Positions 4,415 through 38,526 of a DNA stretch of 41,372 bases are shown here, in pieces. Every line of letters begins with the position of its first letter. Position 1 is the stretch's first letter. A program made the translations under genes and the position numbers. The notes beneath the pieces were generated by a model. It made no database searches. It had not been told where the DNA came from and saw nothing but the letters and a program-made list of their open reading frames with translations. The DNA is from a virus, in the IMG/VR virus record IMGVR_UViG_3300018428_002440, positions 1 through 41,372 of that record, one strand, 5' to 3'.

Positions 4415-4422
4415 TTATGCCC

Positions 4423-5226: not shown

Positions 5227-5694
5227 TTAAAAGTTAAACTCCCCTGATCCTGGTATGGTAATTCTTGTGACTGTTCCATCTGCTTCTACAACTTCTAGGC
5301 TGATTTCGCCTGTAGTTGTATCTTTGGTCCAAGTTATAGTTGAACCTTCAATTTCAGCTGTTCCAGTTGTAGCACAGCTAGTGGAACAATCAGCAAACAT
5401 AGCATCTACCATCTGCTTTGATAGTGTTGCGTATATTCTTGATTCTACGTTTTTAACAAATTTAGATAGAGTTGTATTTTCAAGCTCACGCTCAATACGC
5501 TCTGCTTCAGCTTTACGTTCATCGTCAAGCTCTTTTTTCCTGTTGAACTGTAATTGCTCAACAGTTAAAACATGTGTTGAATACCCATTGCCATTAAATG
5601 CTGGGGATTTAAACCCGAAGTTCATTTCGCCAGCTACTGAATAATGTACGTTAATCAGAACTATAGCGAAAATTATAGTTAAAATTCTAAACAT
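5227..5694 (-). CDS. csgF: CsgF-like curli assembly factor
   Basis: 155 aa. Sec signal to about residue 21, then mature GEMNFGFKSPAFNGNGYSTH, matching the CsgF N-terminus (x-F-x-F-x-N-P-x-F-x-G-N-P) that inserts into the CsgG pore as a second constriction. A charged helix follows (KKELDDERKAEAERIERELE), then a C-terminal beta region ending in GSGEFNF. In curli systems CsgF is surface-exposed, caps CsgG and couples subunit export to nucleation. It is the first gene of the operon: GGAGGGC lies 8 nt upstream of the ATG and a late-type motif about 20 nt upstream, so the module is probably expressed late in infection. Confidence 0.88.
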   Translation of the reverse strand: MFRILTIIFAIVLINVHYSVAGEMNFGFKSPAFNGNGYSTHVLTVEQLQFNRKKELDDERKAEAERIERELENTTLSKFVKNVESRIYATLSKQMVDAMFADCSTSCATTGTAEIEGSTITWTKDTTTGEISLEVVEADGTVTRITIPGSGEFNF

Positions 5695-5727: not shown

Positions 5728-7323
5728 TTATTTAATTTCGAACGCAAACGCCGCAGGTTCGTGTGTAGCGGCAGTTTTCTTAAATGGATGGAAGCGTATT
5801 GTTCCGTCAAACACAGGCGGGTAAATTACATTAAATTGTGTAAACATGCCTTGGTCATCGCCTTGCATTTTAAATTTGGCTTTGACTTGTACCATGTTGG
5901 AACTTTCAAGTATAGTACGGAAGAATCTATCTAAACTTTCAACATCTGCATTCATTTTTGCGGCAGTTAATTTAGCAAGGCCTGCTGAGAAATGATAAAG
6001 CACTCTGTATCTAGTACTATTCATATCTCTTGGTTTATATGTTGCAGGATCCATACAAGCTGCATAAAATTTATCACCTACAATGTCTATTATAAGTTGT
6101 GCATTGTTTAAGTCAACTCCACCTTTTGCTAGTAATGCAATAAGTTTATCACTCTCACCTGTAGTAATAAGTTTTACTTGTGCAGCAAGTTTATAGATTT
6201 GATTTTTTACTCCTGGCTGTTTAATGATGTCCATATACGCAAAATATTCTTTGTTCTTAGGATCTTTTAAAAAGTTTGGATGCATCTTTTGGATACGATC
6301 TCTGTTTTCTTCCAGTGTATTTGCTATACTTACAGCACTGGCTTTTGCACCGCCTCCTCCGTCTTTGCTAGATATACCAACTCTTATACCGTCTGCTGAC
6401 ACAAGATAACTGTCAATTAGTTCTTCTGCTTCGTCTGCTGGGAAATCTACATTTATCATGTTGTTCCATTTTAATCCTGGCTTCAGCATATCAAGCAATT
6501 CTTTTTCTGCTTCTTGATAATTTCCTATAACTAGTTGATTTGATTGTAAAGCATGAGGTGCAGCTATTTCGCCTGCTTGTACTTCATAGTTTCTGTCATA
6601 GTCTTTTGTGACAGGAACAGGTTGGCCTAATTTTTCACATAGGTCAGCAACAATACTTCTTTGATCTGCAGGAAATTGTTCTAGGTCACCGCCCTTACCG
6701 CTTCTAAGCATAGGAACAATATTTTGTAAAGGCATTTGTCCTACTGTAATTCCACATCTGTTAGGATATAATCTTACAACAGGATGAGTGGCTTTACTGC
6801 CTTCAGCCTTGACTTGCTCAATAGCAATACCTTTTGCATTTAGATGAGTGACAAATTCGCCCATCAACCATTTTAAATAATTATTAGATTTACTTGGCCA
6901 ATATTTCATAACAAACATAGGACCACTATCTGTTTCAATTTCAACAACTAAAGCCGCAAATTTAGCTTTTCTTGGTTGGGGTGAGCAATCTATTATGTTG
7001 GCAGGATTTAAGCCTGCTTGTTTTAAGTCTTCTTCAAATTGATCATCAGCACTTAGAGTTTTGTCATTACCAGGTGTTTCAGGGTCAGCATTGTCTGGTG
7101 TTGGCACAGGTGTTTTTATTAATTCATCTTGGTATTGTGGTTTACTAGCATCCTCAGGAAACATCCAGAACTTTGTAGGTTCAAATTTCTTACCATCAAT
7201 AAACTGTAATTTGTTTGCCTTACCCGCTTGGTTATCCTCTACAGCACCTATTATGCCGCGAGTACCTTCCATTAGTTTTTGTTCAAATATTTTTTCTGCT
7301 ATTTTGAATTCATAAAAACGCAT
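5728..7323 (-). CDS. Large virion-type protein with capsid-targeting-like N-terminus (531 aa)
   Basis: No enzyme family recognised. The N-terminus MRFYEFKIAE-KIF closely resembles the T4 internal-protein capsid-targeting sequence MKTYQEFIAE, including an I-x-E site of the type cut by the prohead protease. The same MRF(Y/F)EF start recurs at 36640 and 37440. A glycine-rich core, GIRVGISSKDGGGGAKAS (about residues 313-330), lies between alpha/beta regions; it could bind phosphate or nucleic acid, but I cannot assign it. The gene has its own late-type motif (7343-7351) and a ribosome site AGGAAATACAG-ATG. It is separated from the other virion genes, between the bilin and curli modules. I infer a head-internal protein delivered with DNA. 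Confidence 0.7.
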   Translation of the reverse strand: MRFYEFKIAEKIFEQKLMEGTRGIIGAVEDNQAGKANKLQFIDGKKFEPTKFWMFPEDASKPQYQDELIKTPVPTPDNADPETPGNDKTLSADDQFEEDLKQAGLNPANIIDCSPQPRKAKFAALVVEIETDSGPMFVMKYWPSKSNNYLKWLMGEFVTHLNAKGIAIEQVKAEGSKATHPVVRLYPNRCGITVGQMPLQNIVPMLRSGKGGDLEQFPADQRSIVADLCEKLGQPVPVTKDYDRNYEVQAGEIAAPHALQSNQLVIGNYQEAEKELLDMLKPGLKWNNMINVDFPADEAEELIDSYLVSADGIRVGISSKDGGGGAKASAVSIANTLEENRDRIQKMHPNFLKDPKNKEYFAYMDIIKQPGVKNQIYKLAAQVKLITTGESDKLIALLAKGGVDLNNAQLIIDIVGDKFYAACMDPATYKPRDMNSTRYRVLYHFSAGLAKLTAAKMNADVESLDRFFRTILESSNMVQVKAKFKMQGDDQGMFTQFNVIYPPVFDGTIRFHPFKKTAATHEPAAFAFEIK

Positions 7324-7342: not shown

Positions 7343-7351
7343 GTATTTATG
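7343..7351 (-). promoter_or_regulatory. Late-type promoter motif
   Basis: Minus strand CATAAATAC overlaps the stop of the bilin reductase gene, 19 nt before the ATG at 7323. It fits the TATAAATA-like late class and would separate the virion-type gene from the early hsp20-bilin operon. Confidence 0.55.
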
Positions 7352-8039
7352 CGAGTTTAGGAAACAACATGTCTGTGCAGAACCTATCTACATCTTCTTC
7401 TGGTAAGCCTAGGCTTTTCATTACGTTTGCAGTGTGCGGATTTTGTTGCTGATTATGGCAATAATAGTCCTGCGCAGGCCCTACAATTTCTGGATTGCCT
7501 TCACCCTTAGTAGCACCGACTTCTGCAAAATAAGCACGTAAATTATCTGTAGCAATGCGTATAATCTCTGTTGCTTCTTCGTCTGTTTTTACATTACCTG
7601 CAGCAAGCATTTTGCCTGTGAAAATGTTTCTAGCCCACTCTGGTAGTTCACGTTGCTTTTCAGGTACAAAGTGTTCTACACTTTCAAAATAACCTTGTAT
7701 CATAGGATGATCTGGATCAGCACTTGGTGAAAAGTCATGGAATGCACCGGTCATTTTATTCTTGCCTGCTATAACATCAAAGCCATATATAGGTGCAGGA
7801 TTATCTAATGTTGGAAAGATACATACATGCATCATCCAAAGCCCTTTTGAATCGCGGGCATCTACAACATCGATGTGAGCACGGCGTACATTATTATTAG
7901 CCCAAACACGGTTAATCCAACCACCGTCTGGACGATTGAAATAGTCCAACCCATCTTCTTGTATTTCTGTCGCTTGTTCATCAAATATATCTATAATTTC
8001 GTCTTTACACTCAATTAGTTTGTTCCAGATAATGCTCAA
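7347..8039 (-). CDS. pcyX: Ferredoxin-dependent bilin reductase (PcyA/PcyX/PebS family)
   Basis: 230 aa, usual size for the family. Reduces biliverdin IXalpha, made by the heme oxygenase encoded just upstream, to a phycobilin using ferredoxin. Seen: VRRAHIDVVDAR, then LWMMHVCIFP and PIYGFDVIAG, whose Asp (about residue 88) aligns with the catalytic Asp105 of PcyA/PebS; then AFHDFSP and the C-terminal block QQQNPHTANVMKSLG...FCTDMLFP. Overlaps the heme oxygenase by 29 nt. Phage reductases called PcyX, known from marine metagenomes, make phycoerythrobilin and were proposed to come from phages of heterotrophic alphaproteobacteria; the gene symbol follows that context, but PebS or PcyA activity cannot be excluded from sequence. 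The pigment's purpose in a non-phototrophic host is unknown. Confidence 0.85.
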   Translation of the reverse strand: MSIIWNKLIECKDEIIDIFDEQATEIQEDGLDYFNRPDGGWINRVWANNNVRRAHIDVVDARDSKGLWMMHVCIFPTLDNPAPIYGFDVIAGKNKMTGAFHDFSPSADPDHPMIQGYFESVEHFVPEKQRELPEWARNIFTGKMLAAGNVKTDEEATEIIRIATDNLRAYFAEVGATKGEGNPEIVGPAQDYYCHNQQQNPHTANVMKSLGLPEEDVDRFCTDMLFPKLA

Positions 8040-8577
8040 TATCTATCTCCATTAGTTCTTGAAATAATTTTGTACTTTGTTCAAAACAATACTTTGCTTC
8101 ATCTGCCATACTGTCGTTTATCTTTGCACGAATAGATTCTTTTAATTCTGCTTTGTCTGATTCAAACTGATACATACGTCCTTCACCTGGAATTTTTTTA
8201 GCAATCATTTGTCCGCCGCTTAAATCTCCCATATGTAAAACATATACATGTGCCATTAAAGCAGTAGGGTCTTGCATAATATCTTTCATATGCATTATAT
8301 AATCTCTAGTGCTTTGAACTACTATAGGACTACCGTTTTGATCTTCCCATAGTTCTAAAAAATCATTTTCTATTTTTTGTTTTCTTCTTAGTCCTGGTAG
8401 ATCATCAAACAGTCCTTGAGCTCCGGCCATTGCTTCAAGTAGATCATATTTTTTGTGTTGATTCCAAAGATAAGTTGCGTAAAATTTTGGATTTATTTTA
8501 CCACTCATTAAAACTTTTACAAAATCTTGCCGTTCAGCGTTTTTGTGATGTTCCCATGTAAGTTCTTTTAAACTCAT
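8011..8577 (-). CDS. ho1: Heme oxygenase (biliverdin-forming)
   Basis: 188 aa, slightly shorter than cyanobacterial HO1 (about 240). Opens heme to biliverdin, CO and Fe(II). Seen: LTWEHHKNAE near the N-terminus, with His11 as the likely proximal heme ligand (HxxAE pattern), and the family signature LHMGDLSGGQMI (about residues 114-125), the distal helix with flexible glycines. It overlaps clpS by 4 nt (ATGA-type) and the bilin reductase by 29 nt, so the three are translationally linked: ClpS, HO, bilin reductase. Heme oxygenase plus bilin reductase is a known auxiliary pair of marine phages; released iron could also feed the di-iron and Fe-S enzymes encoded nearby. Confidence 0.92.
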   Translation of the reverse strand: MSLKELTWEHHKNAERQDFVKVLMSGKINPKFYATYLWNQHKKYDLLEAMAGAQGLFDDLPGLRRKQKIENDFLELWEDQNGSPIVVQSTRDYIMHMKDIMQDPTALMAHVYVLHMGDLSGGQMIAKKIPGEGRMYQFESDKAELKESIRAKINDSMADEAKYCFEQSTKLFQELMEIDIEHYLEQTN

Positions 8578-18537: not shown

Positions 18538-18611
18538 ATCACTCTCCTTTTTACAGTTGAGTGCGTTCCTTCAGCTTACGCCTACTTCCATGCTATTGCA
18601 CGAACGATACA

Positions 18612-20149: not shown

Positions 20150-20361
20150 AAAGTGGCCCGTTCTGTTGCCCGGTGGAGCCATACCGCGAAGTTGCAGGTT
20201 ATTAAGCTGCAAGTAGTTCACGGTCCATAGACATGTCTAAAGATGTGAACGCTTCAGGTGCAAAGTTTTCGTTTGCGTTTGTAGTTTTTCTTGCGATAAC
20301 CGTGCTTGCGCCGGACAACTCCACTCATCTATTAACTGCCAGTCGATCCTATTTCAGGCCC
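20150..20361 (-). ncRNA. ssrA: tmRNA coding piece
   Basis: Starts at GGGCCTG (20361), carries a D-like region, a pseudoknot-like segment (GTCCGGCGCAAGCACGG), the tag frame and a structured 3' part (about 20198-20150). The 3' end is an estimate. Confidence 0.8.
20202..20276 (-). other. tmRNA tag reading frame (24 residues, ends LLAA)
   Basis: Resume codon GCA at 20276-20274. The encoded tag begins ANENFAPEA and ends MDRELLAA, then tandem TAA stops. The start and end resemble alphaproteobacterial tags (ANDNFA...AA), but about ten residues (FTSLDMSMDREL region) are inserted, making it roughly twice the usual length. The terminal LAA favours ClpXP recognition. Confidence 0.85.
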
Positions 20362-20373
20362 ATCAAAAACACA

Positions 20374-20535
20374 CTAAGAACTGCTACTTGCAGTTGGATA
20401 GTTTGGTATTAATGTTATCCAATCTGCATCTGGAACTTCTATGACGATACCTAACTGTGGTGTCATCAACCCAGTATTAAAATCTTTTGCGGGTTCTGTA
20501 TTTAACATTCCCATAAGAGCAAAAATTAATTCCAT
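20374..20535 (-). CDS. Small ORF inside the tmRNA intervening spacer (53 aa)
   Basis: ATG at 20535 with GAGGA 7 nt upstream, TAG at 20374; it fills almost the whole 196-nt spacer between the two tmRNA pieces (20362-20557). Product MELIFALMGMLNTEPAKDFN followed by TGLMTPQLGIVIEVPDADWI and a Ser-rich end. Not recognised; one hydrophobic N-terminal stretch. It would be released when the precursor is cut. Reality as a protein is unproven: the frame is short, but the ribosome site and good fit to the spacer are suggestive. Confidence 0.5.
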   Translation of the reverse strand: MELIFALMGMLNTEPAKDFNTGLMTPQLGIVIEVPDADWITLIPNYPTASSSS

Positions 20536-20557
20536 TTTATTCCTCGTAATGTGTTTT

Positions 20558-20620
20558 TGGTGGACCTGCGGGGTACCGCCCCCCGGTCCTGCTCAGCGTT
20601 TGAATTGCTTCAACGTTGCA
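20558..20620 (-). ncRNA. ssrA: tmRNA acceptor piece (encoded CCA end)
   Basis: Runs from about 20620 (predicted transcript start) to the encoded ACCA at 20561-20558. T-arm-like stem CGGGG / CCCCG with loop GGCGGTA, followed by acceptor strand CAGGTCC. The loop lacks the usual TTC of a T-loop, which is notable. The 5' end is inferred from promoter position. Confidence 0.8.
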
Positions 20621-20625
20621 GTATA

Positions 20626-20654
20626 TTTATAGCACTATTTTGATGTTTTGTCAA
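20626..20654 (-). promoter_or_regulatory. Sigma70-like promoter for tmRNA
   Basis: Minus strand TTGACA (20649-20654), 17-bp spacer, TATAAA (20626-20631). It lies inside the 3' end of the preceding gene and predicts a start near 20620, just before the acceptor piece. The -10 also reads TATAAATA. Confidence 0.72.
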
Positions 20655-20871
20655 TCTTTGAATCTTCATATTTCATCATCAATGTTGATAAATGATCTGA
20701 CTTTTTAAGGATACCGTATTCATTAACAACAAATACATCTCCTGGTTTGTAAAGATAATGATCTTTTTTTGTGCCGTCTTTAGCAAGGCCCATTACTTCT
20801 CCAGGCCATTCTCCTTTAACACTAAAACTTCCGTCGGGAAAACTTTCTATATTATAGTCCATCCAAATCAT
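20635..20871 (-). CDS. Hypothetical small protein (78 aa)
   Basis: MIWMDYNIESFPDGSFSVKG then EWPGEVMGLAKDGTKKDHYL and YKPGDVFVVNEYGILKKSDH. A beta-rich soluble protein with an SH3-like feel (PGDVFVVNE), not assigned. Strong ribosome site AAGGAG 7 nt before the ATG. Its last codons overlap the tmRNA promoter. Confidence 0.68.
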   Translation of the reverse strand: MIWMDYNIESFPDGSFSVKGEWPGEVMGLAKDGTKKDHYLYKPGDVFVVNEYGILKKSDHLSTLMMKYEDSKIDKTSK

Positions 20872-29385: not shown

Positions 29386-29784
29386 TTAAAGTTTATTGCC
29401 TAAGTCAGTAGCTGACTTGGCCATTTGACTAACTTTATCACCTTCTGGTTCTTGCTCAGGAGCACCAGAATCTATGGTTTGAGCTGTCTTAGGCTCAACA
29501 CCTTCTTGCGAAAAGTTTTGTGTCATTGTTTTGATTCTTGGATCTGTGTCGTAGGCGGCTTTAAATGTACCATAGTCGAATTGTTCACCGCCTACATTTT
29601 GCATAAGTTTGTTAAGGTCAAGATTTTTTGAGCCTTGTTTGATTGATTCTTTACTAGGTTTAGCAAAATGTAAAAAAACAGATTCGCCTTTTTGATCTGC
29701 TGAATTAATAACTGTTCTTAAAACTTGAACTAGCTTGGCTGAGCTGCCTTCGTCTTCTTTTAATAAAATATCAGACACTAGCAT
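29386..29784 (-). CDS. Small virion-type protein with capsid-targeting-like start (132 aa)
   Basis: Starts MLVSDILLKE-DEG, a short amphipathic N-terminus with an L-x-E site like T4 prohead-protease targets. The rest, LVQVLRTVINSADQKGESVF then LNKLMQNVGGEQFDYGTFKA, is helical with an acidic C-terminal tail (PEQEPEGD). No family recognised. Lies 8 nt after the scaffold-like gene at 29793, at the end of the virion gene cluster. Confidence 0.65.
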   Translation of the reverse strand: MLVSDILLKEDEGSSAKLVQVLRTVINSADQKGESVFLHFAKPSKESIKQGSKNLDLNKLMQNVGGEQFDYGTFKAAYDTDPRIKTMTQNFSQEGVEPKTAQTIDSGAPEQEPEGDKVSQMAKSATDLGNKL

Positions 29785-29792
29785 GTCTAATC

Positions 29793-30749
29793 CTATTTCT
29801 TTTTTGAAAGTATTGTGCCTAGTCTGCGACTAGTTTCGATCATTTTACGTTTTTGAATTATGCTTTCACGCTTATCTCTGCCTGCTTCGTCTTCACCACC
29901 TGCAGCTGGTTCTGATGCGCCAAAGTCATCTCCACCCTCTGCGTCAACAGTTGGTTCCATCTCTGCCTCAGGAGCAGCATCATCAGTTGCCATTCCTTCT
30001 GGTTCTTCGGCACCCATGTCTTGTGCAGGTTCTGCTTCGCCTGTCAGCTGGCCTACGCCACCTGTGAGTGAGCCACGTGTGCTTTCTAGTGCTGTGTATA
30101 AACTTTCTAATGCTGGCTTAACTGTTTGTATAAATGATTGTGATTGTGCTTCACCCATTTCATCGCGTATTGCATCACCTAATTCTAGCATTGATTCTGA
30201 TTGCATTTCTGCTGTGTCTTCCATCCAGCCTGTAATTCTATCTACCATGTCCTTAGCGGCCATTACAATTTCTGCTTTGTCTTCTTCACCTTCAACTAAT
30301 GTTTGAAAATAGTTGTTTATAATTTCTTTACCTTCATCTTTTTTCATGTGCTTCCTCAACTGCGGTGGTACTTTACTTAGGTCCTTAGCTTTTTTCTCTT
30401 TAGGCTTTGCATCTTTGCCTAGATCGTTTTTGCCTTTGCCATCTTGTGCATAATCTGGAACACCATCTTTGTTTTTATCAGGCATTTTTTCTTCAACTGA
30501 TGCTTCAGCAACAGCGGCATTTAATACGTCAAGAAATAGTTTGTTTTTTTGATATCTATCACTAGTATTCAATGAATCAAAACTTTCGTTAGTTTCAAAT
30601 TGACTTAGTGTAGTACGTAATTTGTTTCTAGCATCTTCTAACTGTTCTAGTGTAAATGCTTCTAAATTAATCTTTTTACCAAACCTTGCGGCAAGGCTTT
30701 CGTTCAAGGACTTTGCTGTCATTGGTTTTGAAATTTCTCTAATATTCAT
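29793..30749 (-). CDS. Prohead-core/scaffold-like acidic protein (318 aa)
   Basis: N-terminus MNIREISKPMTAKSLNE-SLA (with an L-N-E site), then NLEAFTLEQLEDARNKLRTT and YQKNKLFLDVLNAAVAEASV, a central KNKDGVPDYAQDGKGKNDLG / LSKVPPQLRKHMKK segment, long acidic helices, a Gly/Ala/Glu/Asp-rich disordered stretch (about 225-285) and a basic C-terminus (RKMIETSRRLGTILSKKK). Highly charged, helical, low complexity: typical of phage head-core or scaffold proteins. Similar proteins (EQLEDARNKLRT...KLFLDVLNA) are known in marine T4-like phages without firm function. Own late-type motif upstream. Confidence 0.7.
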   Translation of the reverse strand: MNIREISKPMTAKSLNESLAARFGKKINLEAFTLEQLEDARNKLRTTLSQFETNESFDSLNTSDRYQKNKLFLDVLNAAVAEASVEEKMPDKNKDGVPDYAQDGKGKNDLGKDAKPKEKKAKDLSKVPPQLRKHMKKDEGKEIINNYFQTLVEGEEDKAEIVMAAKDMVDRITGWMEDTAEMQSESMLELGDAIRDEMGEAQSQSFIQTVKPALESLYTALESTRGSLTGGVGQLTGEAEPAQDMGAEEPEGMATDDAAPEAEMEPTVDAEGGDDFGASEPAAGGEDEAGRDKRESIIQKRKMIETSRRLGTILSKKK

Positions 30750-30770
30750 CAGTTCTTCCTAACGTATAAT

Positions 30771-30779
30771 ATATTTATT
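30771..30779 (-). promoter_or_regulatory. Late-type promoter motif before the scaffold-like gene
   Basis: Minus strand AATAAATAT, 21 nt upstream of ATG 30749; GGAAGAACTG serves as ribosome site. Confidence 0.5.
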
Positions 30780-30786
30780 TATCACT

Positions 30787-31203
30787 TTATATAATTAAAT
30801 AGTTCATAAGTTGATGCCTGGCTTGATGTGTTTTTTCAAGAGCTATTTCCAGACGTGTTTCAGCTACCTCTTTTTTTAGTTCATCTTTGCTTTTTTCTAT
30901 GGTATTTTTATAAAATAGACTATCTAAATGATGTTTTGCCACATTATGATCTAAATTTTCAATATCAGGCCCTGATTTTGTTTTGTATATAATGCTGTGT
31001 GCATAGGCCACAGCACCTGTTTTGCTGTAAAAAGACTTTAATTTCTTGTTTTCCTTACAATCATACAACAAATAACCATGGCTGCTTTTACGGATTATAA
31101 TATGCTTAATCCGTATGCTGTTGCCTTTTTGATAAGGTATAACAGAGAGATCAACGCTGTTTACTATATCTTCTAACTGTTTTAATATGTGTGGTTCAAT
31201 CAT
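30787..31203 (-). CDS. Hypothetical phage protein (138 aa)
   Basis: MIEPHILKQLEDIVNSVDLS then IRIKHIIIRKSSHGYLLYDC and AVAYAHSIIYKTK, ending in a long Lys/Glu-rich helix (KSKDELKKEVAETRLEIALE). A small alpha/beta domain followed by a coiled tail. The Y-L-x-Y-D segment and A-x-A-x-A-H-S helix look conserved among marine phages by recollection; function unknown. Overlaps the upstream small gene by 8 nt. Confidence 0.65.
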   Translation of the reverse strand: MIEPHILKQLEDIVNSVDLSVIPYQKGNSIRIKHIIIRKSSHGYLLYDCKENKKLKSFYSKTGAVAYAHSIIYKTKSGPDIENLDHNVAKHHLDSLFYKNTIEKSKDELKKEVAETRLEIALEKTHQARHQLMNYLII

Positions 31204-31399
31204 TTCGCATAACCAAAAAGAGCCCTTCGTTGCGTACTTTACTTACTAAACTTTTCTTTACTAAGTTGTCAATTATGACTTGTTCTCTTTCTGAATATGC
31301 GTGTAAAGGATGCGGGGTAGCATCCATTTTAAGCAATAATTTTGCTTCTTCGTTCGTTGTGTAAATCGTAAAATCTTGTATAAGTTCGTTGATTTTCAT
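31196..31399 (-). CDS. Small protein with tag-like start, possible winged helix (67 aa)
   Basis: MKINELIQDFTIYTTNEEAK then LLLKMDATPHPLHAYSEREQ and VIIDNLVKKSLVSKV. The start resembles the M-K-I-x-E-L tag seen in its neighbours but lacks a clear (I/L)-x-E cut site. The remainder (SEREQVIIDNLVKKSLVSKV then GLFLVMRN) could be a winged-helix motif. TAATG overlap with the upstream gene. Confidence 0.6.
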   Translation of the reverse strand: MKINELIQDFTIYTTNEEAKLLLKMDATPHPLHAYSEREQVIIDNLVKKSLVSKVRNEGLFLVMRND

Positions 31400-31647
31400 T
31401 ATATTGGTTGTTTCATTACTACCTTAGATCCGGGCTTTATACCATTGTCAACATTGCCAGCTGATTTAGGATCAATTACAAATCGCTTGCCTGATGCATC
31501 GCTAGGATCTTTTTGTATCATGCCTGGCTTCTTAGGATCCCTTGGTATCTTTGTTTCAATACCGCTTTTAGGATCTTTCAAAACAACTGTTTTATCATCT
31601 GCTGACATCACATCTAATTCTTGTTCTAATAATTCACTTATTTTCAT
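31399..31647 (-). CDS. Small virion-type protein with capsid-targeting-like start (82 aa)
   Basis: Begins MKISELLEQE-LDV, close to the T4 capsid-targeting pattern with L-x-E. The body is short and polar, with KDPKSGIETKIPRDPKKPGM and IDPKSAGNVDNGIKPGSKVV, suggesting an extended beta segment or flexible linker. Not recognised. Overlaps both neighbours (4 nt and 1 nt). Confidence 0.6.
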   Translation of the reverse strand: MKISELLEQELDVMSADDKTVVLKDPKSGIETKIPRDPKKPGMIQKDPSDASGKRFVIDPKSAGNVDNGIKPGSKVVMKQPI

Positions 31648-31946
31648 TTGAACTTCTTCCTTCCAAAAGGGGACGATTTTGGCTTGTTTAATCTAGTTAG
31701 CCTTTTAGCTGCAGGATTAGCCCTTCTTGCGATTTTAGATTTTACCTTGATTTGTCCACTTCTTTTATTTTTTGTTTGTTTTAAGCCAATACTTTTCTTT
31801 ACATTGATAGGCGCATTACAAGCTGCAGGACTTGCTCTTACTTGTCCTTTTCTAGGTCCATATGTACAGCGAAACTTGCGTGTTTGTTTACCGCCGCTTC
31901 TGCTCCATACCCTAGTTGAACCTTCTAATATTTCTACTACTCTCAT
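31644..31946 (-). CDS. Basic head-type protein with RKxRCTxGxRKG domain (100 aa)
   Basis: Tag-like start MRVVEILE-GST, then a very basic domain: RKFRCTYGPRKGQVRASPAA, CNAPINVKKSIGLKQTK, and RRANPAAKRLTRLNKPKSSP. The same domain, with both Cys conserved, forms the C-terminus of the next gene (31943-32857). About one third Lys/Arg, so it probably binds packaged DNA, like T4 internal proteins. Overlaps its neighbours by 4 nt each. Function not known; the two Cys may form a knuckle or disulfide. Confidence 0.68.
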   Translation of the reverse strand: MRVVEILEGSTRVWSRSGGKQTRKFRCTYGPRKGQVRASPAACNAPINVKKSIGLKQTKNKRSGQIKVKSKIARRANPAAKRLTRLNKPKSSPFGRKKFK

Positions 31947-32857
31947 CTTGAACTCTTATTTAGTTGTGCGACTCTACGACTTACAGGACTTACACGTTTT
32001 GTACGTCTTGCTTTTCTCGCCATTCTATTACCAAGTCTTGCTTTTGTTTTTTTAAGAGCAATTCTTCTTTTGATATCTTTAGCCTTAAAACATTGTGCTG
32101 GCTGTGAAACAACTCTTCCTTTTCTACTGCCTCCTGTGCATCTATATTTACGCACAACTTTTTGTCCAGACTTTGCCCAAACTTGTTTTTCTTCTAAACT
32201 TTCATTATCTAATGAGTCTAAAGCATCTTTTGCAATAGATGTTATATCGTCATCTTTGTTTTTAGATTTTTCTGGCATTGGCATCCCTGAACCATCTACA
32301 ACAGGACCGTCTGGATTACCTGGAGGTGTGCCATCTACAAAAGGAACAATAGGTGCTAGATACAACGTTTCTTTTCTAAACCTTACAAAAACAACTTGAT
32401 GTGTGTCTTTGAGTTCTTCATACTTTTCAGGAGTAAATTTGAAAATATAATCTTTAAGTTGCCCTAGTAAAAGTCGATTTACTTCTTTAGGATCGTCTGG
32501 AGTACCTTCTTGAGGCGTAGTTCCAAAGTAAATATCTCCTACAATTTGTATCATTTTATTGATTGTATTTTTACCAGGATCTCCGTCAACAGTCAAGTCA
32601 TTATCTTTTTGAAAGTTCATAACACCTCGGGCTGTTTTACGGCCAAACCAACCATCTGCTTTGCCTACATTATATCCTAAATCGTTAAGAATATATTGGA
32701 CATTTTTTAATTCGTCAGTCTGTATAGAGCCTTTTTTTGTTTTGCGCCATTGACTTGATGAAGTATCTATAGACTGGAGTATAGCCAAAGAGGCCTTTGC
32801 CATTTCTGGGTCCATCTTTTCCATGATGATTGATGAGATTAATTGTCTTACAAACAT
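31943..32857 (-). CDS. Peptidoglycan-binding domain plus basic C-terminal domain protein (304 aa)
   Basis: N-terminus MFVRQLISSIIME-KMD (I-M-E site). Residues about 50-105 form a PG_binding_1 repeat: LKNVQYILNDLGYNVGKADG then WFGRKTARGVMNFQKDNDLT. A central acidic region (DIYFGTTPQEGTPDDPKEVN and on) leads to a Pro/Gly linker and a C-terminal basic domain, VVRKYRCTGGSRKGRVVSQP then AQCFKAKDIKRRIALKKTKA, homologous to the neighbouring 100-aa protein. The combination suggests a virion protein that contacts DNA and, on entry, the cell wall. A perfect TATAAATAC late motif and GGAG ribosome site precede it. Confidence 0.78.
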   Translation of the reverse strand: MFVRQLISSIIMEKMDPEMAKASLAILQSIDTSSSQWRKTKKGSIQTDELKNVQYILNDLGYNVGKADGWFGRKTARGVMNFQKDNDLTVDGDPGKNTINKMIQIVGDIYFGTTPQEGTPDDPKEVNRLLLGQLKDYIFKFTPEKYEELKDTHQVVFVRFRKETLYLAPIVPFVDGTPPGNPDGPVVDGSGMPMPEKSKNKDDDITSIAKDALDSLDNESLEEKQVWAKSGQKVVRKYRCTGGSRKGRVVSQPAQCFKAKDIKRRIALKKTKARLGNRMARKARRTKRVSPVSRRVAQLNKSSR

Positions 32858-32873
32858 TGCATACTCCTATGCA

Positions 32874-32882
32874 GTATTTATA
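32874..32882 (-). promoter_or_regulatory. Best-match late promoter (TATAAATAC)
   Basis: Minus strand TATAAATAC, followed by TGCATAGGAGTATGCA and the ATG at 32857. Exact match to the T4 late consensus TATAAATA. Confidence 0.7.
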
Positions 32883-32887
32883 CAACT

Positions 32888-33130
32888 TTAATTGAAGTTT
32901 ATTAATAGAACGATAATGGTTGAAAGTAGGCCTGCAACAATAGTTCCTGTTGCACCTATGATAACTTTGATCATGCTCTTGTTGCCGTGTTGTATATCTT
33001 GATGAACATGCTCTAACTTCTTCTCTACTGCTGTTAGACGTGACTCAAGATTCTCATAACGCTGTTGACAAAGGTCAACATGGGCTTCAAGATTTTCTCT
33101 TTCTAGTTCTGTTGTTCTGGCTCTTGCCAT
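32888..33130 (-). CDS. Coiled-coil plus C-terminal membrane-span protein, XhlA/holin-like (80 aa)
   Basis: MARARTTELERENLEAHVDL then a heptad coiled coil (YENLESRLTAVEKKLEHVHQ) and one C-terminal membrane span (VIIGATGTIVAGLLSTIIVL). This layout matches small phage XhlA-type or Rz-like membrane proteins involved in lysis, and also tail accessory proteins. No partner holin is adjacent. Ribosome site GGAGAG before ATG 33130. Confidence 0.65.
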   Translation of the reverse strand: MARARTTELERENLEAHVDLCQQRYENLESRLTAVEKKLEHVHQDIQHGNKSMIKVIIGATGTIVAGLLSTIIVLLINFN

Positions 33131-33210
33131 CTTATTATCTCTCCGTTCCTTATTTCTCGTGGAAGGGGCCTAAATATGCCTTGTGATGTAATGTTTGCCT
33201 AAATTATAAC

Positions 33211-33220
33211 ATTATTTATA
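33211..33220 (-). promoter_or_regulatory. Late-type promoter motif
   Basis: Minus strand TATAAATAAT, in the 103-nt gap between genes, about 80 nt before ATG 33130. The gap also has GGCATATTTAGGCCCC of no clear function. Confidence 0.45.
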
Positions 33221-33233
33221 ATAATATCTGACT

Positions 33234-33626
33234 TTAATTATCAGATAGTTTAAAAACAATATTTCGTTCTGTTGCGTCTTTTGTTCTAAAAGCATGATTA
33301 TTTATAGACGCTGTTTCATTTAATCCTGTAATAATAGGCACTAAATCAAAGTCATCGGTTAGTGTTTTTTCCGTGACTGCACCTTCGTAATTGTGCTCAA
33401 ATATAAATTCCCAATATCGTTGTTTGCCTGTAATTGCTGATCCAAATCCTATATCACTAACGTCATCTACTATTGCTTTGCAGGATATTGTTTCTATATT
33501 CACCCTCATGCCAACGGTTTGCAACATGGTCAAATAGTTTGCTTGCTGATTGCGAGCAAGTTTATCATCTTGCTTGCGAGCGTTGGTTTCGGTGATGTCT
33601 ACTACGGTGATCAGGGTGACTCTCAT
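33234..33626 (-). CDS. Conserved marine T4-like phage protein (130 aa)
   Basis: MRVTLITVVDITETNARKQD then DKLARNQQANYLTMLQTVGM, RYWEFIFEHNYEGAVTEKTL and DDFDLVPIITGLNETASINN. I recall this family (MRVTLI-x-V-x-D-x-TETxARKQDD...LVPVIxGLxET) in marine T4-like phages, where its role is unknown; it is next to virion genes and may be structural. No Shine-Dalgarno is seen: the ATG lies 4 nt after TTAAATAC, a late-like motif, so the message may be leaderless or the start is misplaced. Confidence 0.75.
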   Translation of the reverse strand: MRVTLITVVDITETNARKQDDKLARNQQANYLTMLQTVGMRVNIETISCKAIVDDVSDIGFGSAITGKQRYWEFIFEHNYEGAVTEKTLTDDFDLVPIITGLNETASINNHAFRTKDATERNIVFKLSDN

Positions 33627-33651
33627 GACAGTATTTAACGGTCATAAAAAA

Positions 33652-33674
33652 AGCGCCACTGCAAAAGTGGCGCT
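33652..33674 (-). terminator. Rho-independent terminator
   Basis: Inverted repeat AGCGCCACT / AGTGGCGCT (9 bp, 5-nt loop) with a run of seven A on plus (33646-33652), i.e. a U-tract on the minus RNA. It ends the 33698-34093 transcript. Confidence 0.9.
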
Positions 33675-33697
33675 TTCTTCTAGTATTAAAACTATTC

Positions 33698-34093
33698 TTA
33701 CATTCCGAATAGGTCTGACTGTAGTGTGACAGTTGTTGTACCTGTTGTACCGCCGTCTGTGTAAACACCAGAACCTGCAACGATTACACCTGGTGTACCA
33801 GCTGCGTCAAAGTGACGACCGATATCAGTTGCAATAGTGTCGATTGATGTTGAGTGACCGTCTGCAACTATAATTGCTTCACGCCCGTTTGCGTCCCACT
33901 GGAAAATGTGTACTGGTGCACCCATTGTTTCCATTACTTGCTGTACGCCTGCTGCGTTTAGGTCTGTTGTACGTCCTGAGTTAGAAAGAACAACTTTGTA
34001 CACAACCATTTGGTTAGTTTGTACAACTGTGTTAAGTGCTGTTGCACTTGGATTGTCACGTGTCACGTCACGTGTAATTGATGATATTGCCAT
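33698..34093 (-). CDS. Small repetitive virion-type protein (131 aa)
   Basis: MAISSITRDVTRDNPSATAL then VVQTNQMVVYKVVLSNSGRT, VHIFQWDANGREAIIVADGH and a Gly/Thr-rich end (TDGGTTGTTTVTLQSDLFGM). Beta-rich, no Cys, low Lys: like a head-decoration or tail-tube-associated protein. Monocistronic with a late-type element and hairpin in the leader and a strong terminator, which suggests high expression and so a major structural protein. Family not recognised. Confidence 0.72.
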   Translation of the reverse strand: MAISSITRDVTRDNPSATALNTVVQTNQMVVYKVVLSNSGRTTDLNAAGVQQVMETMGAPVHIFQWDANGREAIIVADGHSTSIDTIATDIGRHFDAAGTPGVIVAGSGVYTDGGTTGTTTVTLQSDLFGM

Positions 34094-34120
34094 TTTATTT
34101 CTCCTTTATCTTAATGACAT

Positions 34121-34157
34121 ACACTACGCTCAGTAGTGTTTGTATAATATTATTTAG
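34121..34157 (-). promoter_or_regulatory. Late-type motif and leader hairpin
   Basis: Minus strand CTAAATAATA (about 34148-34157) followed by a hairpin ACACTAC-TGAGC-GTAGTGT (34139-34121) and then AAAGGAG before ATG 34093. The stem may stabilise a highly expressed mRNA, as 5' hairpins do for T4 gene 32-type messages. Confidence 0.5.
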
Positions 34158-34175
34158 TCTAAGATAAAAAAATAG

Positions 34176-35039
34176 CTATTTTAAGGTCTTTTTCGCTCGA
34201 TTTTGAATAGATCTGAACATATTGATATAACTAGGACCTGCTCTCACTACGTCATCTAGTGCTTTAATAGCTGGCAAATAGGCTTTTACCATATTTCCAG
34301 GTATTGGTTTTCCTTGGGCTGCAAGTTCTAAAAAACCTTTTATCAGCATTATATTTTCTTTACCAACTAGGTACCTATAAAAAACATAGTCTCTACTTGC
34401 GGCACTTGTGTCAGGAATACTTATTACTGGTTCGTTATCTTTTACCCAGTTGCTTTCTAAACCTGCTCTACTGCAATACATTTCTAGTTCATCTATAACA
34501 TCACTGCTTCTTAATTTAGCGCGGCCTGCATATAATAGTTTTGTAGCTGTGACTTTTTTCTTTTCAATATCTAATGTGCGCCAGTTAGTTATTGACCTAC
34601 GAATCATTTTATATTCATTATTAGATATACCAAGCACTCTTTCTAATTTTACAAATAGTTGAGTACTAGATGGTTTAGATCCTGTTGCAATCTGTTGTAG
34701 AAAAGCCTTAACATTATCTACTGGAAGGTATGTATTCATTCTTGAACGTCTTGCGGCTCCTGGATCTTTGAGTTTATCTAAAGCTCGTTCATCTCCAGTC
34801 ACAAAATAAATGAAGTTGTATAGGTCTGTACCACTTATTTTAAAACGTTCATAATTACTGCTAAGGCTCTTCCTACAATAGTCCCTTATAGTTGAAGTTG
34901 CTTTAGGGAAATTTGTAAGTAAATCAAGAACAAGTAAGTGCAAATATAATCTTTCGCAACAGTCTTTGTATGTCAGAACTTTCATGTTCTGATCATTGCG
35001 AGTCATTCTTGCTTCTTCAAGTTCTTGTAAAAATTGCAT
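34176..35039 (-). CDS. Helical virion-type protein with tag-like start (287 aa)
   Basis: Begins MQFLQELEE-ARM (L-x-E). Helical throughout: YKDCCERLYLHLLVLDLLTN, IRDYCRKSLSSNYERFKISG, TDLYNFIYFVTGD, LFVKLERVLGISNNEYKMIR and MLIKGFLELAAQGKPIPGNM. No catalytic motif seen; basic pI likely. It is the last gene of the overlapping run 38526-34176 and overlaps the next by 1 nt. Function unknown; virion or capsid-internal by context. Confidence 0.65.
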   Translation of the reverse strand: MQFLQELEEARMTRNDQNMKVLTYKDCCERLYLHLLVLDLLTNFPKATSTIRDYCRKSLSSNYERFKISGTDLYNFIYFVTGDERALDKLKDPGAARRSRMNTYLPVDNVKAFLQQIATGSKPSSTQLFVKLERVLGISNNEYKMIRRSITNWRTLDIEKKKVTATKLLYAGRAKLRSSDVIDELEMYCSRAGLESNWVKDNEPVISIPDTSAASRDYVFYRYLVGKENIMLIKGFLELAAQGKPIPGNMVKAYLPAIKALDDVVRAGPSYINMFRSIQNRAKKTLK

Positions 35040-35476
35040 TAGTAATTTACACCTACATTACTGCTTCTGTTTTGTAAAGCCATTTTTGTTGAGCTTGACA
35101 TATAATTTGCAATGTAGTACTGTTGCATACTTTTACCGTCGTTAGCATCTAAGAAAGGAGTTAGGCCAACTTTAGTTGTAATGTCTTTTGAAAACTTTGC
35201 TTTCTCCTGTCTATCACTGCCATTAACTGGACTACGTTTTAATAATTGCATTAGAGCATTTGCTTGGTCAGGTGTCACTTTGATATCTGATCCATCTTTA
35301 GTTTTTACGCTGTCTATGGGATTTGGATTTCCTCTGCTGTCTAGAATTTTTCCTAATTGATCAACAATTGAAAAATCATCTCCGCCCCCATCATCGTCTC
35401 TATCTAGTTCCTTACCGTAGTTTTTAAGACCTAGATCGTCGAAGTCACCTTCTTTTAATATGTCTTGTATTTTCAT
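35039..35476 (-). CDS. Small virion-type protein with tag-like start (145 aa)
   Basis: Starts MKIQDILKE-GDF (L-K-E site), then an acidic linker (DRDDDGGGDDFSIVDQLGKI), a short domain TKDGSDIKVTPDQANALMQL and a C-terminal Ser/Asn-rich end. Not recognised. Sits between the ligase-like and helical genes. Confidence 0.62.
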   Translation of the reverse strand: MKIQDILKEGDFDDLGLKNYGKELDRDDDGGGDDFSIVDQLGKILDSRGNPNPIDSVKTKDGSDIKVTPDQANALMQLLKRSPVNGSDRQEKAKFSKDITTKVGLTPFLDANDGKSMQQYYIANYMSSSTKMALQNRSSNVGVNY

Positions 35477-35488
35477 TTCATACCTTCC

Positions 35489-36640
35489 TTATCGTTGTAC
35501 TGCTCTGTTAGCAGCTGTAAAGCCAGCTCTGTTTACTAGTTTAAATGAACCTGAAGGATGAGCCAGCACGTATCCTTCTCCACCAGGTTGATCGCCTATT
35601 GATGCCCTTATAGAACTTTTGTGGCTGTCAAATTGATTAATAATATCATTTTTTACTTGCATTATTTTATTGACAACTTCAAATATTGCATCTATGCCTG
35701 TTTTATTTTTGCTTATATATTCTACTAGTCTTGTTTGTTTAACTTTGCTAACACTCGATCCTGCAAGCCATCTAGTAAAATCGTCTGTGTTAATATTGCT
35801 TAAACCTGTGTCTACTTTTTGATTCATGTAAGAATAAAGTATATTAGGAACGTCCTTCATTTTCATTGACACAAGTGTTTGTACATTTAAAAAAGAATCT
35901 ATTGCTGCAGAATCTTTTGCAACAACTTGTTGTAATTCTTTAATAGCAGTATCGTCAACTGCTGCACCTTTTTCAACTGTAATAGCAGGAAATACTAATA
36001 AGCCGCCGCCGGACAACATTTCTATATAGTCAGGTGGCAACGGTTTTTCTGTGCCATTCTCATCAATCATCATATGTAAAACAACTCCACTGTTGCTTTT
36101 TGCAATTTTTTTACCCATTGCACTATCTTTGTCGACTCTGTAAGTGACCATTTGTGGTTTGAATACATAATCGTTATCTTCTGTAGGAGGTTGGTGATAG
36201 TATAATAAATCTCCTTTGAAATATCCTACAAAGTCATCAGGCACTGCTTGTTCAAAATCATCAAACACATTTTTCATATTACTTGCAAAGGCTTTATAGT
36301 TGTCGTCTGCTTCTATTCCTTTTCTTTCTTTTCTTGCAAGGAACATTTTTTCAATGTCTTTTCCGTTTGACGGTCTTCCATCATAGCCTTTTGCGCCGAA
36401 ACCGGATTTGTCTGTAAGTGTAAATTCTCCATTTGCATTACGTCCAAAAATGACTGCGGGAGATCCATCCCATTTAATAGTGACATCTTTATGTCCTCCT
36501 TGTTCTAAACTTTTTAGGCTCTCAATTGCTCTTGCAGCACCTTTTGATCCTTCAAAGAAAACTAAATCCTCAGCATGATGTATTCTTGCATCTTGCCCTT
36601 CGTTTATTTGTAGAGATTGTTTAAATTCATAAAAACGCAT
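35489..36640 (-). CDS. Ligase-like covalent nucleotidyltransferase with capsid-targeting-like start (383 aa)
   Basis: N-terminus MRFYEFKQSLQINE-GQD matches the proposed head-targeting tag (I-N-E). The body has motifs of the DNA/RNA ligase superfamily: motif I VTIKWDGSPAVIFG with candidate nucleophile Lys56 (K-x-D-G), a motif III-like DFVGYFKGDLLYY (Asp144), and C-terminal GGEGYVLAHPSGSFKLVNR, with Glu355 and Lys367 as motifs IV and V. The distance from I to IV is long, so an insertion or all-helical domain may lie between. Similar proteins occur in marine T4-like phages without a known substrate. If the tag is real, this would be a ligase carried in the capsid, possibly sealing or capping ends of the injected genome. 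Enzymatic role is inference. Confidence 0.7.
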   Translation of the reverse strand: MRFYEFKQSLQINEGQDARIHHAEDLVFFEGSKGAARAIESLKSLEQGGHKDVTIKWDGSPAVIFGRNANGEFTLTDKSGFGAKGYDGRPSNGKDIEKMFLARKERKGIEADDNYKAFASNMKNVFDDFEQAVPDDFVGYFKGDLLYYHQPPTEDNDYVFKPQMVTYRVDKDSAMGKKIAKSNSGVVLHMMIDENGTEKPLPPDYIEMLSGGGLLVFPAITVEKGAAVDDTAIKELQQVVAKDSAAIDSFLNVQTLVSMKMKDVPNILYSYMNQKVDTGLSNINTDDFTRWLAGSSVSKVKQTRLVEYISKNKTGIDAIFEVVNKIMQVKNDIINQFDSHKSSIRASIGDQPGGEGYVLAHPSGSFKLVNRAGFTAANRAVQR

Positions 36641-37440
36641 TATGCTGTTCCCATTCCTGACTTACCTGTCCGATACGCCATTCTTACATAGTCAGGAGCA
36701 TTTGCACTTCTTCCTCCTGCTCCCCAGATAGTTCCTCCTTTAGCAGACCCCCATAAGTCTACATGTATACCTGTGCTACCCATATAGCCTGGACCTGCAC
36801 CAATACCTTTAGCACCAGCATCTACAGCTGAAGCAATAAATTTTGCAACAATAGGATTTTCTCTATCAGTTCTTAACGTACGACCATCGCTTACTAATTG
36901 TATGTCTGCAGCATAGCCTCCGTCGTGACGAGTTGATCCTGTTCTTCTCGAACCTTTTCCAAGTGCGTCTTGTCCTCCACTAGTGACTAATACGTCAACA
37001 CCTGCTGCTTCGGCAGCACTCTTCAGTACATTCATTAATTGTCTTTGTATGGGTTGGTTTCTAGTTTTGTTTGAATTAGCCATTTTAACTCTACCTTCAC
37101 CTTCACCAGATGCAAACGAAACTTGATCACCTCCACCAACTTCATTACCTGTTGGTGTTGGCTCTTCTACTTTTTTTGCAGAATTTAACTTTTGTATTTC
37201 TTGTTTATTTAAACTTGTAGGTGGAGTAGAGATGTTGTTATCTTTTTTAAATGACCTAACTGCCGCAGTAGTTCTGTGTCCATACTTCCCGTCAACTCCT
37301 GTGCTACCAACGCTGTATCCTAATTCTTGTAAACGTTTTTGCACAGCCTTTACTTGTGGAGCAACTTCTGGTGGATAGGGCGGACCTTGAATAATTTGCT
37401 CATCAACAGTTTCATTAAAATTAAATTCAAAAAATCTCAC
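36640..37440 (-). CDS. Peptidoglycan-binding plus M15-like peptidase with capsid-targeting-like start (266 aa)
   Basis: Tag-like start MRFFEFNFNE-TVD. Residues about 25-68: PG_binding_1 repeat (VQKRLQELGYSVGSTGVDGK then YGHRTTAAVRSFKKDNNI). Residues about 130-230: M15-like metallopeptidase fold, VLVTSGGQDALGK, then GSTRHDGGYAADIQL with H-x-x-G-x-A-x-D (His172, Asp179) and GIHVDLWG (His226), the zinc ligands typical of D,D-/L,D-carboxypeptidases. Probably cleaves peptide cross-links of the wall during DNA entry or exit. TAATG-type overlaps with both neighbours. Confidence 0.82.
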   Translation of the reverse strand: MRFFEFNFNETVDEQIIQGPPYPPEVAPQVKAVQKRLQELGYSVGSTGVDGKYGHRTTAAVRSFKKDNNISTPPTSLNKQEIQKLNSAKKVEEPTPTGNEVGGGDQVSFASGEGEGRVKMANSNKTRNQPIQRQLMNVLKSAAEAAGVDVLVTSGGQDALGKGSRRTGSTRHDGGYAADIQLVSDGRTLRTDRENPIVAKFIASAVDAGAKGIGAGPGYMGSTGIHVDLWGSAKGGTIWGAGGRSANAPDYVRMAYRTGKSGMGTA

Positions 37441-38267
37441 TATAACATTCTCACACTATTCAAATTTAATCCAGCAAGTTCTCTGATTCTGTCAAGTTCT
37501 TGATCTTGCTCTGCTTCTGGTAAACCTTTGCCTTGTTTTTCCATTGCTTCTAACCAAGGAGCAACAAGCTCTTCAAAGTTAGGATCATTTTTAATTTTTG
37601 CAATCATACTTTCAACTGTATGAGTATCAACTTCTTTTGCTCCAGGGCCAAGCAAAATTTCTGCTATTTCGTCCCAGTTGTTTGCGACTACTGCATCGCC
37701 GTTGTTTGGATCAACAACACCTTTGGTAGGACTAAATTTATATCCTCTACCTCTTGCTATGCTTGAAAGGAGCACAGCTCTGTCTGCGCCTGTGTAGTGT
37801 TCAGTGCCTCCACGTTTTGCTCCGCGTTGTAAATCAGGATTGTCAGTAAGCATAAAGTCTGTTTGTACAAAGCCATTTTCTGTATTACCTTTTATAGGTG
37901 TGCGAAAGTGTACTTGTAGTCCGGCATTAGCGACCCAACCTTGTGTGAATGTTCTACCCTTATTCATAATTTCTAAATCTGGAATACCTTGCTTTTGACA
38001 CCAAGACGATAATTTTGCAATTATTTCTTCTTTGGGTAGTTCTCTAACGTCAACATTTAAATCAATATCACCTGAACTATTTTCTTCAAATGTGCCGTCC
38101 GGTTTATTTTTTTTGCCTGTTGTACCAAGCATGTCTTCGTCAACAAATTTAAATCCAAATGTGCGGTTTAACCAATCAATAGTAGGCTTGACATCAGAAG
38201 TGGCAATCCTTTGAGTAATAGGACCTTTTTCAGTTTTAAAAACGTTTCCACCTTCGTTAAGTATCAT
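37440..38267 (-). CDS. Pol-beta-fold nucleotidyltransferase-like protein with tag-like start (275 aa)
   Basis: Starts MILNE-GGN (L-N-E, like T4 Alt MELITE). Contains DMLGTTGKKNKPDGTFEENS then SGDIDLNVDVRE: the GS/T...S-G-D-I-D-L signature of Pol-beta-type nucleotidyltransferases, with metal Asp67 and Asp69 and a third Asp in FVQTDFMLTDN (Asp137). TEHYTGADRAVLLSSIARGR follows. The G-S helix has T instead of S (LGTTG), so activity needs checking. Family members add nucleotides to RNA, DNA, proteins or antibiotics. It is next to a ligase-like protein, which makes a nucleic-acid repair or end-modifying pair attractive. Confidence 0.72.
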   Translation of the reverse strand: MILNEGGNVFKTEKGPITQRIATSDVKPTIDWLNRTFGFKFVDEDMLGTTGKKNKPDGTFEENSSGDIDLNVDVRELPKEEIIAKLSSWCQKQGIPDLEIMNKGRTFTQGWVANAGLQVHFRTPIKGNTENGFVQTDFMLTDNPDLQRGAKRGGTEHYTGADRAVLLSSIARGRGYKFSPTKGVVDPNNGDAVVANNWDEIAEILLGPGAKEVDTHTVESMIAKIKNDPNFEELVAPWLEAMEKQGKGLPEAEQDQELDRIRELAGLNLNSVRML

Positions 38268-38526
38268 TCTTTTGCCTTTGTTTATTTTCTATTATCTTTT
38301 CTATTCCACGTTTGAATTTACGTGGATCACCACTTTTGATACTGTTTAAGAAACGTCTTTCTAGCTCGCCTGCGGTTGTTGCATCGTAGTTTTTATTGAT
38401 AGTGTTTATCAAATTAATACCACTTTTGATAATATTGTTTGCTGTGGCTTCAATCATAAGATCATTGTCTCTGTTCAAGCCCAGATTATTTAATTCTTCT
38501 AATATACTTCTTGTGTGTTTTTTCAT
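38257..38526 (-). CDS. Small basic helical virion-type protein (89 aa)
   Basis: MKKHTRSILEE-LNN start (L-E-E), then NLGLNRDNDLMIEATANNII and DATTAGELERRFLNSIKSGD, ending FKRGIEKIIENKQRQKNDT. Helical and basic. First gene of the overlapping unit that ends at 34176; overlaps the nucleotidyltransferase gene by 11 nt. Not recognised. Confidence 0.62.
   Translation of the reverse strand: MKKHTRSILEELNNLGLNRDNDLMIEATANNIIKSGINLINTINKNYDATTAGELERRFLNSIKSGDPRKFKRGIEKIIENKQRQKNDT

Follow-up and report, generated by a model that had tools for sequence, protein, structure and literature searches.

Candidate capsid-targeting leaders on a cluster of putative virion-cargo proteins in a T4-like marine myovirus

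The virus record IMGVR_UViG_3300018428_002440 (41,372 bases, hereafter the window) is a fragment of a T4-like marine myovirus, whose closest complete cultured genomes by gene content are those of Methylophilales phage Melnitz and Pelagibacter phage HTVC008M (both Kyanoviridae). Its stretch 29386-38526 is very probably a virion-cargo cluster, in which short N-terminal tags act like the capsid-targeting sequence (CTS) of T4. In the proposed mechanism most of the cluster proteins would carry an N-terminal leader of 5-20 residues, whose hydrophobic or aromatic core (MRFYEF, MKIxDIL) would bind the scaffold core of the prohead; a prohead protease of the gp21 type, with its gene in another part of the genome, would cut the leader off at its terminal [IL]-x-E, and the mature protein would be left in the head and ejected with the DNA. 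Among the predicted cargo are enzymes that handle DNA (one a family-X-like nucleotidyltransferase, the other ligase-like), proteins that bind peptidoglycan, and small, very basic proteins. Loading into the prohead directed by the leader is held with the same high confidence as the cluster itself; removal of the leader by a gp21-type protease is probable, and ejection into the host, argued by analogy with T4, is expected a little less firmly.

N-terminal tags in the window and in related records

A preliminary description of this DNA had quoted ten N-termini as sharing the core motif M-[KR]-[IFV]-x-[ED]-[IFL] and had assigned all of them to 29386-38526. All ten occur letter for letter in the sequence, each on the minus strand, but the gene starting with MRFYEFKIAE (5728-7323) falls outside the stretch. 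The motif as such fits seven genes (5728, 31196, 31399, 31644, 35039, 35489 and 36640, named here by their first coordinate), six of them among the 16 genes of the stretch, whereas MLVSDILLKE, MILNE, MQFLQELEE and MNIREI...SLNE are only looser variants. When residues 2-26 of each N-terminus were permuted in 500 rounds, 0.058 genes with the core motif were expected (maximum 2). Three tagged genes of the stretch (31196, 31943 and 38257) were absent from the earlier list. The bare triplet [ILFMV]-x-E was present at residues 5-20 in 13 of the 16 cluster genes and in 13 of the 51 other genes of the window (p=1e-4); this triplet alone is weak evidence, and its conservation in orthologues is the real signal.

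Conservation was scored in 100 records gene-called together, namely the window, 19 records with a DUF6267 protein and 80 around NrdA. Families represented by five or more distinct N-termini numbered 61, of which 21 lay upstream of NrdA (cluster families). A [ILFMV]xE site at residues 5-20 was found in at least 80% of the members of 12/21 cluster families and of 4/40 other families (p=1.4e-4), with the same split when the site had to fall at residue 7 or later; if a small residue after the E was required, the numbers were 7/21 and 2/40 (p=0.006). The core motif reached 30% of the members in 7/21 cluster families and in 0/40 of the others, and the NrdA, NrdB and 21346 families scored 0 for the site. 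These p-values are descriptive only, because families and cut-offs were picked after the data were seen. With the corrections given above, the observation is confirmed. Among the other families passing the site filter were the NifU-like 29000 family, rejected as cargo since it looks like an ordinary conserved helix, the lipase 38593 family, rejected for its opposite strand and lack of a tag core, and the 21115 family, which was retained as an extra candidate.

The cluster tags drift in length and sequence, yet they usually finish in [ILFMV]-x-E just ahead of the conserved domain (a slash in the tags given here marks the predicted cut site, directly after E). The site was kept in 95% of 56 N-termini of the 31644 family despite highly varied tags, and in 30/30 distinct N-termini of the 29793 family, mostly as L-N-E/[SN]; a small residue followed it in 84% of 19 N-termini of the 34176 family, and M[IT][IL][NK]E/GG opened 12/12 N-termini of the 37440 family. 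The 31196 family had the core motif in 52% of 31 N-termini, and the tag of 29386 was kept by only some relatives (MRVSDIILE, MRIAEV, MKISEV).

In the 35489 (DUF6267) family the tag, of 11-20 residues, ends in [IL]xE/[AG] in 16/16 distinct N-termini of relatives, such as MRFYEFKQSLQINE/G, MRFYEFKQIAKPILNE/G, MRFYEFKYVNKTPLME/G, MRFYEFKQINKQPLIE/A, MRFGEFRILTE/A and MRYSDIKLVESKVQPVQLNE/G. In the AlphaFold model of 35489, residues 1-19 are disordered (pLDDT <50) and the ordered domain begins shortly after the leader. The same domain is preceded by MYNDLLVE/D in HTVC008M and by MLTLINFSKYITE/D in Melnitz, and it starts directly, without leader, in the cyanophages P-HM1, P-TIM40, S-PM2 and S-SZBM1. 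The leader is thus modular: unrelated bodies carry it and DUF6267 has it here but not in the cyanophages. The start MRFYEFK is common to 5728 and 35489, between whose bodies no similarity was detectable.

These tags resemble the CTS of the T4 proteins IPI-III and Alt in their length of about 10 residues, their hydrophobic positions 4 and 7, their terminal [IL]-x-E and the presence of a common leader on unrelated bodies. The T4 protease gp21 cuts after L/I-x-E; in the leader of IPIII, residues 4 and 7 serve for targeting and residues 8 and 10 for processing (PMC9026906). Hydrophobic residues near positions 4 and 7 were present in 5728, 35489, 36640 and the MKIxDI class, and an orthologue-conserved [IL]-x-E ended the leader in most members, weakly so for 31196 and 29386. 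Tagged 31644, 31943 and 34176 are strongly basic, as are the T4 internal proteins. Compared with T4, the window phage has more predicted cargo and cargo of other kinds, the ligase-like and polymerase-like enzymes among it; its leaders include a second class (MKIxDILxE, 8-9 residues) and variants as long as 20 residues, and their cleavage is inferred. A number and variety of tagged proteins well beyond T4 had been claimed; this holds against T4 itself (Alt plus three internal proteins), but phiKZ, SPN3US and Atu_ph07 are known to have large numbers of head proteins that are processed or packaged. In SPN3US and phiKZ many head and ejection proteins are cut by the prohead protease after a short motif ending in E; their cleavage motifs are different, and their leaders are not known to be this short shared tag.

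Virion proteins of other phages, the prohead protease and alternative readings

A gp21-type protease, to be sought outside the window, was found as a Peptidase S77 gene in both complete relatives, Melnitz and HTVC008M, and in four phages gp21 itself has an N-terminal stretch that ends in an [IL]xE-type site. Tagged proteins were also found in virions of phages of the same family. The published virion proteome of S-CREM2 contains 52 proteins (PMC10665884), and among those detected by mass spectrometry (MS) are a SAM hydrolase (MKDFDSFLEE), a kinase (MKRFDAFLTE), an NMNAT (MKNFSSFLTE), gp13 (MKDLHSFLTE) and gp136 (MQTFSMFFSE). The pattern hydrophobic-x-x-aromatic-hydrophobic-x-E (T4-type rule) matched 5/52 of the virion proteins and 1/166 of the other proteins (p=0.003). 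In the virion-detected Cas9-like gp12 of the same phage (L023, 7704-10313) the core RFASFMAE ends at about residue 25, not at the start, which suggests that either the start codon is wrongly placed or the leader is longer. In S-SZBM1 (PMC9146016), the tagged NMNAT gp140 (MRFRQFIIE/A) was detected by MS, and the adjoining untagged DUF6267 protein gp141 was not.

Most genes after the DnaB-like helicase of PA5oct are annotated as structural from electrospray tandem mass spectrometry (ESI-MS/MS). Profile matches to the window families were gp259 (38257; named virion structural protein), gp247 (29793) and gp250 (33234); gp247 is an MS-detected virion protein, as is gp253, a marginal homologue of 37440. 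The corresponding matches in Atu_ph07 were gp068 (38257), gp065 (37440) and gp064 (34176), all located inside the cluster of coding sequences 31-76, from which 29 virion proteins, possibly including some of these three, were identified (PMC6102473). The PA5oct and Atu_ph07 homologues of 38257, 37440, 34176 and 29793, several of them MS-detected, occupy the same position after the primase-helicase, so that the arrangement of helicase and cargo cluster is found again in distant relatives of T4; the order helicase, cargo cluster, NrdA is also the same in XbC2 and in the window. Atu_ph07 has in addition a paralogue array, not seen in the window, from gp062 to gp056 (L117, 10673-16090), whose members start with M[RK]W[HDQE]QL[ITN]E (MRWHQLTE type) and contain a YRG motif. 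They are possibly ADP-ribosyltransferases like T4 Alt; the one member tested had no Pfam support.

Targeting to the head is considered likely because of the tagged S-CREM2 virion enzymes, the PA5oct and Atu_ph07 virion-cluster homologues and the gp21-type protease of the relatives. The original proposal is supported in part: capsid-internal proteins with T4-type tags for targeting and processing are well supported by orthologue conservation, by the S-CREM2 enzymes and by the PA5oct virion homologues, and cleavage after the E and injection into the host are inferred. Several observations weigh on the other side. The virion detections come from homologues or tagged proteins of other phages, not from the window phage or its close relatives, and the T4-type rule was not significant in S-SZBM1 alone (p=0.46). 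A search for a gp21-type protease found none in the 41 kb fragment itself and none in 16 related fragments, all of them too short for this to be informative. The [ILFMV]xE triplet is frequent, and about one N-terminus in four has it by chance; loose-triplet tests of the cluster in Melnitz and HTVC008M singly were not significant (p 0.07-0.14), and four control families keep conserved sites, at least some of which (NifU-like 29000) are probably fortuitous. No convincing tag was found on 30787, 32888, 33234 and 33698 of the stretch, 31196 has no clear cleavage site, and part of the cluster could encode peripheral components of the head or tail and not ejected cargo.

The tags might be targeting or scaffold-binding peptides that are retained on the protein, so that packaging occurs without cleavage. 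In T4 IPIII, an Asp at position 10 abolishes processing and leaves targeting intact (PMC9026906), and 31196 and some 29386 relatives have the core without a clear [IL]xE site; most families, however, keep [IL]xE, often with a small residue after it, at the domain boundary while the leader drifts, as for a protease site, and retention of the leader is unlikely. A similarly low probability is given to the cluster being a set of ordinary virion parts (head decoration, neck, baseplate) that are not injected and whose N-termini are alike from docking on a common structural partner. PHROG labels several cluster proteins as virion structural, and the untagged members 32888-33698 could be structural, but the bodies look enzymatic (ligase-like, polymerase-like, peptidoglycan-binding), and the S-CREM2 proteins that fit the T4-type rule are enzymes or hypothetical proteins, none of them annotated as belonging to the tail or baseplate. 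Coincidence, with M-K/R-I/F and E abundant in short AT-rich N-termini, would fit the chance frequency of the triplet; it is made very improbable by the excess of the core motif in the window and its absence from all control families, and by the orthologues, which keep the site while the leader varies. A virion-cargo cluster with T4-type leaders is the reading that we prefer.

Ligase-like and polymerase-like proteins

Covalent nucleotidyltransferases share motif I (KxDG), motif IV (EGxV) and motif V (K-x-x-R). KWDG and EGYV were found in 32/32 DUF6267 proteins, with invariant columns K56-G59, E355-V358, K367-V369 and R371 (K-L-V-x-R), and we take KWDG, EGYV and K-L-V-x-R to be these three motifs. 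In the fold search with 35489 only ligases were among the matches listed, the best being a Naegleria RNA ligase with modest values (Z 6.4, root-mean-square deviation (rmsd) 4.9, 187 residues), and T4 Rnl2 gave Z 5.3; RNA and DNA ligases were also the top, weak matches in Foldseek (E 0.016). Sequence profiles of 35489 and 37440 found nothing meaningful among solved structures. The fold matches suggest that 35489 resembles an ATP-dependent DNA- or RNA-sealing ligase. No mention of DUF6267 was found in the literature search, and this is a first functional proposal for the domain.

In the 37440 family, SGD[IL]D and Q[TV]D[FI]M (QxD) were conserved in 25/25 members, so that the three catalytic aspartates (GDxD plus the third) are present. 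The top Foldseek matches were polymerases beta, lambda and mu, and family X polymerases made up the matches listed by VIA (best Z 7.1, rmsd 4.8, 149 residues), with a model of moderate quality (pLDDT 71.5); the family gave no polymerase match in Pfam. These models suggest that 37440 resembles a family-X DNA polymerase, with a predicted gap-filling activity.

The homologues of 37440 and 35489 overlap by 4 bp in 20 of the 24 records holding both and by 1 bp in two; in the window and in L001 the tagged peptidoglycan-binding gene 36640 lies between them. The Atu_ph07 homologue of 37440 is adjoined by gp066, with a weak RNA_ligase match (E 0.002, below the cut-off). These observations suggest that the polymerase-like and ligase-like proteins form a predicted gap-filling and sealing pair. 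Only tentatively, and with the odds somewhat against it, we propose that the phage packages a two-enzyme genome-repair kit, in which both tagged proteins would be delivered with the DNA, so that gaps would be filled and nicks sealed before any phage gene is expressed. In a bacteriophage, such a kit would parallel the repair sets of polymerase and ligase known from large DNA viruses of eukaryotes.

Tagged genes, genomic setting and significance

Tagged genes of the window (a slash marks the predicted cut site)
Product	Coordinates	Strand	Tag	Remarks
Orphan, 531 aa	5728..7323	-	MRFYEFKIAE/K	No relatives found in viral contigs and phages
Basic protein, 58 aa	21115..21291	-	MTLHEQIVQAFNNYITE/S	Outside cluster, after NrdB; not in earlier list; [ILFMV]xE site in 44/44 distinct N-termini of relatives; mature isoelectric point (pI) 10.2; may be a further head protein
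132 aa protein	29386..29784	-	MLVSDILLKE/D	Weaker member
Acidic protein, 318 aa	29793..30749	-	MNIREISKPMTAKSLNE/S	
67 aa protein	31196..31399	-	MKINEL start	PHROG 16215 virion structural protein, weak
82 aa protein	31399..31647	-	MKISELLE/Q	Orthologues MKIYEILNE/QELD, MRMHELLE/NELD
Very basic protein, 100 aa	31644..31946	-	MRVVEILE/G	pI 12.0, charge about +29
304 aa protein	31943..32857	-	MFVRQLISSIIME/K	Peptidoglycan-binding domain PF01471 and basic C-terminal domain; orthologues MFLRELITE/AP, MYLRELITE/EP; mature net charge about +20
Basic protein, 287 aa	34176..35039	-	MQFLQELEE/A	
145 aa protein	35039..35476	-	MKIQDILKE/G	Site in 12/12 distinct N-termini
DUF6267 protein, 383 aa	35489..36640	-	MRFYEFKQSLQINE/GQ	Predicted ligase-like covalent nucleotidyltransferase
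Peptidoglycan-binding protein, 266 aa	36640..37440	-	MRFFEFNFNE/T	PF01471; between polymerase-like and ligase-like genes; only relative found in search, L001
Family-X polymerase-like nucleotidyltransferase, 275 aa	37440..38267	-	MILNE/GG	Short tag
Small basic virion protein, 89 aa	38257..38526	-	MKKHTRSILEE/L	PHROG 11854 virion structural protein

The window also encodes NrdA and NrdB, UDP-glucose dehydrogenase, ClpS, ribosomal S21, CsgG and a curlin repeat protein, the curli module being common to the window, Melnitz and HTVC008M (PMC9004378). In the window this module spans 2540-5694, with CsgG (4423-5226), the curlin-repeat protein (3704-4414) and, probably, genes of CsgF-like (5227-5694) and FecR-like (2540-3703) type; curlin-repeat genes were found, although the Melnitz paper (PMC9004378) states that csgA and csgB are missing. 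A bilin-making pair at 7347-8577 consists of a heme oxygenase (8011-8577, PF01126) adjoining a ferredoxin-dependent bilin reductase (7347-8039, PF05996), and a glutamine riboswitch lies at 18560-18608. The tmRNA gene (20152-20658; RF01849 107 bits, RF04321 96 bits) is permuted and of alphaproteobacterial type, which hints at an alphaproteobacterial host.

Neither the CTS concept nor its application to varied cargo is new; a review of Black's work proposed that T4-like phages can load different kinds of cargo by means of the CTS (PMC9026906). New, as far as the literature search shows, are the wide use of the tag in this marine lineage, the second class of leader, the connection with packaged cyanophage enzymes and the ligase and polymerase proposals. 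The packaged 'regulatory' proteins of S-CREM2, S-SCSM1 and S-SZBM1 (NMNAT, SAM hydrolase, kinase, Cas9-like protein) belong to phages of the same family, Kyanoviridae; those detected by MS in S-CREM2 and S-SZBM1 bear T4-type leaders, like the window proteins. The enzymes themselves differ from those of the window, and leaders are not mentioned in the excerpts of their reports.

If the preferred reading is true, a readable N-terminal code would predict the capsid-carried proteins of T4-like phages, in a group that is widespread in the ocean and most of whose gene products lack annotation. The presence of SAM hydrolase, kinase, NMNAT and a Cas9-like protein in cyanophage virions would be accounted for, and dozens of hypothetical proteins would become testable pre-loaded effectors. 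If the repair proposal also holds, phages may bring DNA-repair enzymes along with the genome, which would be useful where sunlight damages virion DNA.

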